Origin: Actinomycetes bacterium
GTDB taxonomy: Bacteria; Actinomycetota; Acidimicrobiia; Acidimicrobiales; RAAP-2
NCBI GenBank assembly: GCA_021838005.1
Contig: JAKCEK010000002.1
Coordinates: 1-34,412 of the forward strand
Direction: 5' to 3'
Length of the DNA: 34,412 nucleotides
The notes below the pieces were generated by a model. The model saw only the letters and a program-made list of their open reading frames with translations. It had not been told where the DNA came from and searched no databases. Shown here piece after piece: positions 18,378 through 23,589 of the stretch (position 1 is the stretch's first letter; every line of letters begins with the position of its first letter). A program made the position numbers and the translations under genes.

Positions 18378-21463
<3,086 letters not shown>

Positions 21464-21484: not shown

Positions 21485-23308
21485 ATGGCGCAGTTCCCCA
21501 ACGGACACGTGGTCGCCGGCCGCTACCGCGTGGCCGAGCTGCTCGGGGTCGGCGAGGTCGCCGAGGCCTACCGGGCCGAGGACCTCTCCTTGCACCGCAC
21601 CGTCGTGGTCAAGGCCCTCGCCCCCGGTCTCGCCGCGCACGAGACGGTGCGCCGGGAGTTCCGCACCCGCATCGTGCGCGCCTCGTCCCTGAGCCACCCC
21701 CACCTGCCCCGGATCTACGACGGGGGCCAGGAGCACGGGGCGATCTTCGTGGTGGGCGAGTACCTCGCGGGCGGCTCGCTCGAGGACCGGCTGGCCCGCG
21801 GGGTACGCCTCTCGATCGACGACGGCGCCCGCCTGGGCCGCGACGTCGCGGGGGCCCTCGCCTACCTGGCCGAGCACGGCTTCGTGCTCGGCGACCTCTC
21901 ACCGGGCTCGTTGATCTTCGACGGCGACGACCGCGTCCGGGTCGGCGACCCGACCCTGGCGAGCCTGGCTGACCCCTACCGCGAGCGGCTCTCGGCCGAG
22001 ACGGCTCGCTACCTCTCACCCGAGCAGGTCCGGGGCGAGGCGCCCGACGACAAGAGCGACGTGTACGCCCTCGCCCTGGTCCTGTTCGAGGCGGTGACCG
22101 GCGAGCCGGCCTTCCCGGGCGTGGCGGCCGACGCGGTGGCCCAGGCGCGCCTCACCCAGCCCCTCCCGGTGCGCGTCGAGCTCGGCACCCTCGACATGAT
22201 CCTGGCCCAGGCCACCGTGCCCGACCCGCTGCTGCGCCTCGACGCGGGCCAGTTCGCCCAGCGCCTCGGGGCGGTCGCCGGCGACCCGGCGCCCGCGGCC
22301 GTGCCGCGGGCCGCGGCGCGCCTGCCCCTGCTGGCCCAGGTCGAGCCGACGGCCCCGCGACGATCCATCGGCTTCAACGCCCCCTCCGCCAGTGAGGTCG
22401 CCTCGACGCCGGTCTCGAGCGGCCCGACGTTGCGCCCGCGCCAGGATCTCGGCCCGGGACTCAGCGCCGGGCGGGTGGTGAGCGGGCGCACGCCCCACTT
22501 CTCGTACGGTCTCGAGCCGCCGCGCCCGCCGGCGCGCCCCACCCGCTGGGGGCTGATCGCCGTCGCGATGCTGCTCGTCGTCGTGGCCGTCGGCGCCGGC
22601 GCGGCGTGGAAGGCCGGCCTCTTCGCGCGCAGCTACGCGGTGCCGGACCTGGTGGGGGCCTCGCTCAGCGCCGCGGCCGCCCAAACGGCCCCCCTGCACT
22701 TCAGCGTCGACGTGACCGGGCGGACCCACTCGACCCGCGTCTCGAGCGGCCACGTCGTCTCCCAGTCGCCCGCCCCGGGCACGACGATGAAGTCGGGTTC
22801 GACCATCTCGGTGGTGCTCTCGCAGGGCGCGGCCCTCGTCTCAGTGCCGCGCAACGTCGTCGGACGGGGCTGCGCCGGGGCGACCCACGAGCTCACGTCG
22901 CTCCACCTGCGCGTGAGCTGCCCGGCCTCGGCGGCGCTCTACTCGTCGAGTCTGCCCGCGGGCGACGTCGTCGCGGTCATCTACCACGGTACGCGCAACC
23001 CCCTCGCGGTCCCGGCCGGTGCGTCGGTCGTCCTGGCCCTGTCCCGGGGTCCGAACCCGGCCAGCACCACCACCTCGACGATCGCCCCGACGACGACCAC
23101 GACGTCCGCCGCGCGGCGACGCGCTGTGCCCAACGTCGTGGGCGACGACTACGCCCAGACCTACGCCGCCTTTAAGAAGGCGGGGCTCTACTTCAGCACC
23201 TCGGGCCACCTCGCGGGCACCACCACGTGGACCCGGGTCATAAGCGAGACGCCCGCCGCCGGAACCCTCGTGCCCTTCAAGTCGACCGTCTCGCTCGTCG
23301 TCCGGTGA
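21485..23308 (+). CDS. membrane PASTA-domain protein with degenerate Ser/Thr kinase domain
   Basis: The 607 aa product has a PknB-like layout: cytoplasmic kinase domain (about 10-270), a Pro/Arg-rich juxtamembrane linker, one transmembrane helix (WGLIAVAMLLVVVAVGAGAA, about 355-375), and three extracellular PASTA repeats (about 384-449, 450-520, 546-607), the last two separated by a Thr-rich linker. K43 (VVVKAL), the C-helix Glu and the YLSPEQ/DVYALALVLFE core are kept. The catalytic loop reads LGDLSPGSL instead of HRDLKPxN: D137 stays, Lys and Asn become Ser. The DFG motif is DPT (155-157). It is therefore probably a pseudokinase or weak kinase sensing muropeptides. The next gene overlaps by 4 bases. 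Confidence 0.88.
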   Translation: MAQFPNGHVVAGRYRVAELLGVGEVAEAYRAEDLSLHRTVVVKALAPGLAAHETVRREFRTRIVRASSLSHPHLPRIYDGGQEHGAIFVVGEYLAGGSLEDRLARGVRLSIDDGARLGRDVAGALAYLAEHGFVLGDLSPGSLIFDGDDRVRVGDPTLASLADPYRERLSAETARYLSPEQVRGEAPDDKSDVYALALVLFEAVTGEPAFPGVAADAVAQARLTQPLPVRVELGTLDMILAQATVPDPLLRLDAGQFAQRLGAVAGDPAPAAVPRAAARLPLLAQVEPTAPRRSIGFNAPSASEVASTPVSSGPTLRPRQDLGPGLSAGRVVSGRTPHFSYGLEPPRPPARPTRWGLIAVAMLLVVVAVGAGAAWKAGLFARSYAVPDLVGASLSAAAAQTAPLHFSVDVTGRTHSTRVSSGHVVSQSPAPGTTMKSGSTISVVLSQGAALVSVPRNVVGRGCAGATHELTSLHLRVSCPASAALYSSSLPAGDVVAVIYHGTRNPLAVPAGASVVLALSRGPNPASTTTSTIAPTTTTTSAARRRAVPNVVGDDYAQTYAAFKKAGLYFSTSGHLAGTTTWTRVISETPAAGTLVPFKSTVSLVVR

Positions 23309-23589
23309 GCCGCTGCGACCTCTGCGAGGCGGCGGTGGTGACCCGGCGCTACTACGAGGACGAGCGGTGCTGGATCGCCGACTGCGAGATCTGCCGGGTG
23401 CCGATGGTCGTGTGGCGCGAGCACGACCCCGATCCGCCCGACGAGGTGCGCGAAGCCCTGCACGAGGCCCTCGCCCGCGTGGCCGAGGCCGCCTTCGAGG
23501 GAGGGCAGTGGCGCCTCGACGACCACATGCGCAACATCCCCGACCACTACCACGCCCACGCCCGACCGCCCACGTTCGGGCGCCGCTAG
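23305..23589 (+). CDS. small zinc-ribbon protein with HIT-like motif
   Basis: The 94 aa product starts at GTG 23305, overlapping the PASTA gene stop (GTGA). It opens with CDLC (C4, C7), then YYEDERCWIADCEIC (C22, C27, C30) and PMVVWREH, and ends with HYHAHARP (H81, H83, H85). The order CxxC, YEDE strand, (V)V-x-x-x-H strand, helix, H-x-H-x-H-x-x is that of HIT-superfamily nucleotide hydrolases, but at 94 residues it is shorter than typical HIT domains and has extra cysteines. I infer a divergent HIT-like metal protein; a nucleotide substrate is unproven. Translational coupling suggests a link with the kinase-like protein. Confidence 0.7.
   Translation: MSRCDLCEAAVVTRRYYEDERCWIADCEICRVPMVVWREHDPDPPDEVREALHEALARVAEAAFEGGQWRLDDHMRNIPDHYHAHARPPTFGRR

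Follow-up and report, generated by a model that had tools for sequence, protein, structure and literature searches.

Gene and domain organization of the locus

The window, the whole 34,412-nucleotide stretch of DNA that was analyzed, contains at positions 21485–23308 an open reading frame of 607 codons that begins with ATG and ends with TGA. The product combines a kinase-like domain, a single transmembrane helix and extracellular PASTA repeats. The features of the locus, all on the forward strand, are as follows.

18378–19439 (+): mnmA, conserved neighbor
19436–21463 (+): ligA (DNA ligase), the upstream neighbor that marks the orthologous locus
21485–23308 (+): PASTA pseudokinase gene, 607 aa (open reading frame and Pfam profile matches)
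21503–22270 (+): pseudokinase domain, residues 7–262 (AF2 kinase fold; best PDB matches PknA/PknB/Stk1)
21545–21565 (+): glycine loop, residues 21–27, GVGEVAE (clade alignment)
21602–21613 (+): VAIK motif, residues 40–43, VVVK (motif reading)
21668–21670 (+): αC Glu position, residue 62, now Arg (clade alignment)
21887–21913 (+): degenerate catalytic loop LGDLSPGSL, residues 135–143; HRDxKPxN in active orthologues
21947–22024 (+): DPT (DFG position) to SPE, residues 155–180, shortened activation loop
22172–22213 (+): C-lobe stretch RVELGTLDMILAQA, residues 230–243 (clade alignment)
22358–22399 (+): juxtamembrane motif RRSIGFNAPSASEV, residues 292–305 (pattern scan and reading by eye)
22547–22612 (+): single transmembrane helix, about residues 355–376
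22631–22828 (+): PASTA 1, residues 383–448 (Pfam and AF2 model)
22829–23053 (+): PASTA 2, residues 449–523, divergent, with invariant Cys463 and Cys479 (AF2 model)
23117–23305 (+): PASTA 3, residues 545–607 (Pfam and AF2 model)
23305–23589 (+): small CxxC protein, 94 aa, whose start overlaps the kinase stop (GTGA)

The Pfam profiles Pkinase (83 bits, residues 14–225) and PASTA (85 bits) both exceeded their cut-offs, and the equivalog profile for PASTA kinases, NCBIfam NF033483, matched from end to end with 235.7 bits, below its cut-off of 450. An earlier note on this DNA had described the full PknB/StkP architecture with three PASTA repeats. Pfam recognizes only two of them, at residues 385–447 and at the C-terminus; the description nevertheless holds, because the AF2 model gives the middle unit (449–523) the strand-helix-strand order of the other two. 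The structure prediction that the note had proposed (mean pLDDT 79.4) gave an N-terminal Hanks kinase fold whose nearest Foldseek neighbors are PknA, PknB and Stk1.

Catalytic motifs of the window copy

The sequence was aligned with PknB (PDB 1MRU and 3F61) and with its relatives. The alignments confirmed, residue by residue and at the same coordinates, the reported change of HRDLKPxN to LGDLSPGSL (L135-G-D137-L-S139-P-G-S142-L) and of DFG to DPT (D155-P156-T157). The catalytic-loop Lys is thus replaced by S139 and the loop Asn by S142, and the DFG Gly is lost. Two further changes had gone unnoticed: the αC Glu is replaced by R62, and the activation loop has 26 residues compared with 30 in active orthologues. 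The GT motif of this loop is absent as well; it is kept in 105/110 active and 9/78 degenerate sequences. Where PknB and Stk1 have HRDxKPxN, DFG and the αC Glu, the window protein has LGDLSPGSL, DPT and R62.

A simple active site definition based on three residues, Lys, Asp and Asp, has been described (PMC12599244). Under this definition a pseudokinase lacks at least one of them, and the window copy, with VVVK43, D137 and D155, has all three. In the broad sense it is a pseudokinase, with the loop Asn, the loop Lys, the αC Glu and the DFG Gly all gone. Given K43, D137 and D155, this particular copy may have residual activity.

Distribution of the orthologous locus

A homologue was found in every one of 120 genomes of the family, and the ligA-linked orthologue is spread across an Acidimicrobiia-like order. 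The order mnmA-ligA-kinase is common to live and dead versions at almost every locus on a sufficiently long contig, and the live and dead kinases are one orthologous, synteny-locked locus. In the window's genus, a group of uncultured actinobacteria, the ligA-linked gene was present without internal stops in 45 of 47 sampled genomes; it is cut by a contig end in G108, and only the canonical kinase was found in G093 and G110. The named records are metagenome-assembled genomes (MAGs) titled Acidimicrobiaceae, Acidimicrobiales or Actinomycetes, many of them with the label palsa, bog or fen. Five loci (L104, L112, L149, L150 and L164) come from records titled Acidobacteria or Saccharibacteria, and their sequence and gene order lie inside the actinobacterial clade; these MAGs are probably mislabelled.

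The gene for the 94-aa CxxC protein lies directly downstream in 75/82 degenerate loci, compared with 31/100 active loci. The protein starts with GTG, has CxxC pairs and a His-rich C-terminal stretch (DHYHAHARP), and gave no match in Pfam or NCBIfam; it is a candidate operon partner of the pseudokinase.

Recurrent loss of the catalytic residues

Catalytic motifs were read in 220 non-redundant kinases, four of which were re-sorted by their position in the tree. The canonical PknB was intact in all cases, as were about 110 ligA-linked orthologues outside the window's genus, whereas all 78 full-length non-redundant sequences of the genus clade were degenerate. The earlier note had held that orthologues with intact HRD and DFG motifs would imply a local mutation. 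Such orthologues exist, but only outside the genus, and a local mutation is excluded because the broken state is universal in the genus and under purifying selection (see below). With the same loss fixed in 78 sequences, the degeneration goes far past what chance would give, and pseudokinase status at the level of the clade is strongly supported.

Within the genus clade, the loop Asn (position 142) is present in 0% of the sequences, the loop Lys in 1% (lost in 77/78), the αC Glu in 6% (5/78) and the DFG Gly in 9%. The HRD Asp occurs in 13%, with at least 68/78 sequences lacking it, and its position drifts among A, S, E, D, G and Q. Other parts of the pocket are largely kept: position 43 is Lys in 69/78 sequences (H, R or Q in the rest), D155 is kept in 75/78, and G21 and G23 of the glycine loop are kept in 94% and 92% of the clade, with E27 newly fixed in the same loop. 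Two long-branched members of the degenerate clade, L040 (G100) and L033 (G118), have seen their remaining motifs degrade still more (VALH and VTIQ).

Degenerate sequences were also found outside the genus. Four sequences of a second genus, g10 (L085, L087, L089 and L090), have HGAVKPAN-like loops, DFS, DFR or DFH in place of DFG, and K→R; no Thr is present in their activation loops. G006 has HSAITPTN in the catalytic loop, and a single sequence, G073, differs by K→Q only. In G019 (L048), the sister of g10, HGDLKPSN occurs with an intact DFG, an apparent intermediate.

With the catalytic columns removed, FastTree placed the window's genus in one clade and required four state changes in total. 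An IQ-TREE mixture-model tree of 49 rows required three; in it the intact G019 is the sister of g10, and the intact G018 is the sister of the window's genus. Forcing the genus and g10 into one clade was rejected (AU p=0.014), and therefore catalysis was lost recurrently, the second genus having lost it independently.

By unordered parsimony, the earliest substitutions in the genus, at its base, were Arg→Gly and Asp→Ala in HRD and Lys→Ser in the catalytic loop; K43, the αC Glu and the DFG Asp and Gly were still there at that point. The crown would then have lost the αC Glu and the DFG Gly while keeping K43 and D155, and the basal lineages would have lost K43. D137 occurs in the seven-sequence subclade of the window and, by parsimony, was regained from a non-Asp ancestor, probably as a reversal. 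The observation in the earlier note that K43, D137 and D155 remain is accurate as to their presence, but "remain" is misleading for D137, which as an inferred return from a non-Asp ancestor is no evidence for catalysis.

These patterns bear on two readings in which the domain still uses ATP. In one, the protein retains an unconventional ATP-dependent activity, either as a weak or Mg-independent kinase or by another transfer, as in SelO and SidJ, pseudokinases that have acquired new chemistry (PMC12599244). The frequent retention of K43, D155 and the glycine loop and the complete K/D/D set of the window copy speak for it, but the loop Asn is lost in all sequences, the loop Lys in 77/78, the αC Glu in 73/78 and the DFG Gly in most. 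Because the Asp position drifts and the Lys is gone in basal members, no single active-site chemistry is conserved, and we consider this activity unlikely. In the other reading, ATP occupancy of the dead pocket governs the docking of a partner. The same conserved residues in crown members fit such a switch, and the window copy, with K43, D155 and its glycine loop, could possibly bind nucleotide. Basal members, however, have H, R or Q at position 43 and yet keep the architecture and mostly the juxtamembrane motif, and as a reading for the clade the switch appears very unlikely. The earlier note had expected a nucleotide binder or scaffold rather than a kinase. Pseudokinase status is well supported across the clade. 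Nucleotide binding cannot be its common function, since the Lys is missing from basal members.

Selection on the degenerate domain

Nei-Gojobori dN/dS was calculated for the window sequence and five close orthologues. The values were 0.16–0.21 for the kinase domain, 0.32–0.62 for PASTA 1 and 0.20–0.29 for the whole protein; short stretches were noisy, and the transmembrane, juxtamembrane or PASTA 3 segments were as low as the kinase domain in some pairs. Few parts of the protein are as strongly constrained as the pseudokinase domain. Active orthologues share 103 conserved positions; of these, the degenerate clade retains 49 and has lost 54, most of the catalytic residues among them. A further 22 positions, including R56, G80, Q82, R230, D237 and Q242, are fixed only in degenerate sequences.

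The catalytic residues are gone and the domain diverges faster than the PknB of the same genomes (41–66% compared with 66–83% identity), as a decaying relic without function would. The faster divergence is as expected for a changed function, yet the domain stays constrained. The protein is not a relic because the domain is strongly constrained and carries clade-specific fixed residues; the uninterrupted reading frames and the fixed gene order across the genus point the same way. Such decay is hardly credible, and for the genus as a whole it is refuted.

The second, intact PASTA kinase

Exactly two Pkinase loci, one of them the ligA-linked gene (85.7 bits), were found in the genome of the window (1.85 Mb in 213 contigs, 95% complete). 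The search for a second, intact PASTA kinase that the earlier note had suggested yielded one canonical PknB, on contig C121 (178.2 bits, HRDVKPGN and DFG). It lies between a pstP-like gene and a penicillin-binding protein gene on one side and a crgA-like gene on the other, and this pstP-pbpA-pknB-crgA arrangement is the canonical actinobacterial pknB cluster.

An apparent count of only one FHA protein in the genome was set aside: the usual number in relatives is three genes, of which two lie close to pknB, and the single count is most likely an assembly artefact because contig C121 begins inside pstP. An FHA gene (L266:5895–6359, minus strand, contig C116) encodes an OdhI/GarA-like protein with a zinc ribbon, with 100.8 bits to NF041660, below the cut-off of 200. 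It is followed by a MerR-type regulator gene and a bifunctional-nuclease-like gene, an order that presumably resembles the mycobacterial garA region. The product of a further gene (L267:3442–4224, plus strand, contig C191) is putatively secreted. It carries a lytic transglycosylase-like DPBB domain together with two PASTA repeats, and these repeats (LYFTTRGPGAST..W) resemble PASTA 3 of the pseudokinase.

The juxtamembrane motif and candidate interfaces

The juxtamembrane motif SIGFxxPSxxE (residues 292–305) lies in a linker of low AF2 confidence before the transmembrane helix, and this linker is probably disordered. The strict pattern was found in 73/79 sequences of the genus, in 4/4 of g10, in G006 and in 7/106 active orthologues, all of the latter in the window's family; it was found in 0/21 PknB sequences. 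By eye, four of the six misses in the genus are close variants (L030, L036, L047 and L097), and L034 and L147 keep only IGFNP. The form in active orthologues is typically GFRAPSADELTQ. Active and degenerate proteins both carry the motif, so it is probably a docking peptide that predates the loss of catalysis.

R13, L36 and D79 are kept in 100%, 97% and 100% of the clade and align with R10, L33 and D76 of PknB, which we take to be its back-to-back dimer positions. Conservation of this face was rejected as proof of pairing with PknB: active kinases conserve the three residues to the same degree, and the clade retains 49 of the 103 conserved positions in any case. The retention of R13, L36 and D79 is thus compatible with dimerization but no more than that. 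PknB itself forms back-to-back and front-to-front dimers, and ligand-driven dimerization is the prevailing model of its activation (PMC6428115, PMC6333020). There are three candidate interfaces: the back face of the N-lobe, the patch of newly fixed residues R230, D237 and Q242, and the juxtamembrane motif.

A full PASTA architecture with a dead kinase, beside one live PknB in the genome, could also serve as a decoy or dominant-negative protein that dampens PknB signaling by titrating muropeptides or PknB with its PASTA repeats or N-lobe. One study in mycobacteria reports that regrowth is delayed and β-lactam sensitivity increased when the external PASTA domain of PknB is overexpressed (PMC4632501). 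In a pure decoy, however, the intracellular domain need not be so constrained nor the juxtamembrane motif conserved, which makes this role rather improbable.

Proposed function

The reading that we favor, and hold to be somewhat more probable than all others together, is that of a PASTA receptor in which the kinase fold no longer phosphorylates and serves instead as an interaction module that docks a partner, most economically in the PknB pathway. The ancestor would have been a second, ligA-linked, active PASTA kinase, a single-pass membrane receptor, and in the ancestor of the genus the catalytic loop would have been destroyed while the fold was retained. The extracellular PASTA repeats may bind peptidoglycan or lipid II, and the pseudokinase domain and juxtamembrane motif may relay the signal by docking a cytoplasmic partner. 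This partner would most economically belong to the PknB pathway, reached either through a heterodimer at the N-lobe back face or by recruitment of PknB substrates or FHA readers. A precedent is the pseudokinase of MviN, which is phosphorylated by PknB and recruits FhaA (PMC12599244, PMC11898655).

More tentatively, these pseudokinases might form a new family of PASTA receptors, one with two or more origins from a syntenic active PASTA kinase, and act as non-catalytic co-receptors that allosterically tune the single PknB of the cell. They would then be a bacterial counterpart of receptor tyrosine kinase heterodimers in which one partner is dead, such as HER3; we regard this as possible but doubtful.

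Comparison with known systems

In Gram-positive bacteria, PASTA kinases are the principal phospho-receptors that connect the cell wall with the cytoplasm, and their role as sensor or scaffold is hard to separate from phosphorylation. The genus described here offers a natural experiment, in which the receptor and locus are the same, catalysis is gone and the domain is selected, with the live orthologues of sister genera as controls. The recurrent loss and the possible intermediates (HGD in G019, HSAIT in G006) allow one to trace how a bacterial kinase turns into a pseudokinase. Rule-based kinome surveys that score the presence of K/D/D would class the window protein as active.

A 2025 review of bacterial Ser/Thr pseudokinases distinguishes seven families, ActPs1–3, GLW, CP1, DYD and DLHK; none of the seven is described as a PASTA receptor, and "PASTA" occurs only in its reference list. 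In the open-licence literature, no description of a PASTA pseudokinase or of an Acidimicrobiia PASTA kinase was found.

The closest relatives in architecture are PknB, Stk1 and StkP (NF033483), which share the kinase domain, the single transmembrane helix and the extracellular PASTA repeats, and the best PDB matches are PknB, PknA and StkP/Stk1. The window protein differs from them in lacking the catalytic loop, the αC Glu, the DFG Gly and the activation-loop GT. EssB/YukC is likewise a transmembrane pseudokinase that serves as a scaffold, but it is part of type VII secretion, and its architecture and gene neighborhood differ from those of the window locus.

ActPs2 and DYD are actinobacterial and membrane-associated like the window protein, and DYD also lacks the αC Glu. 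ActPs2 is characterized by a β3 Arg, HRD Asp→Asn and a long activation-loop insertion, where the window protein has K43, D137 and a shortened loop; DYD has its DYD motif and a β3 Arg, where the window protein has DPT and K43. ActPs3, the C-terminal domain of MviN in M. tuberculosis, is likewise an actinobacterial membrane pseudokinase with a deletion in the activation loop, a feature that the window protein shares (26 compared with 30 residues), and it plausibly acts in the same pathway of PknB and FHA proteins. All three motifs are degraded in ActPs3, including the VAIK Lys (VALT, Lsidhpsr and Y-- in MviN), whereas the window protein keeps K43 and D155. MviN is a lipid II flippase protein and not a PASTA receptor; the window protein is such a receptor and derives from an orthologue that was active.
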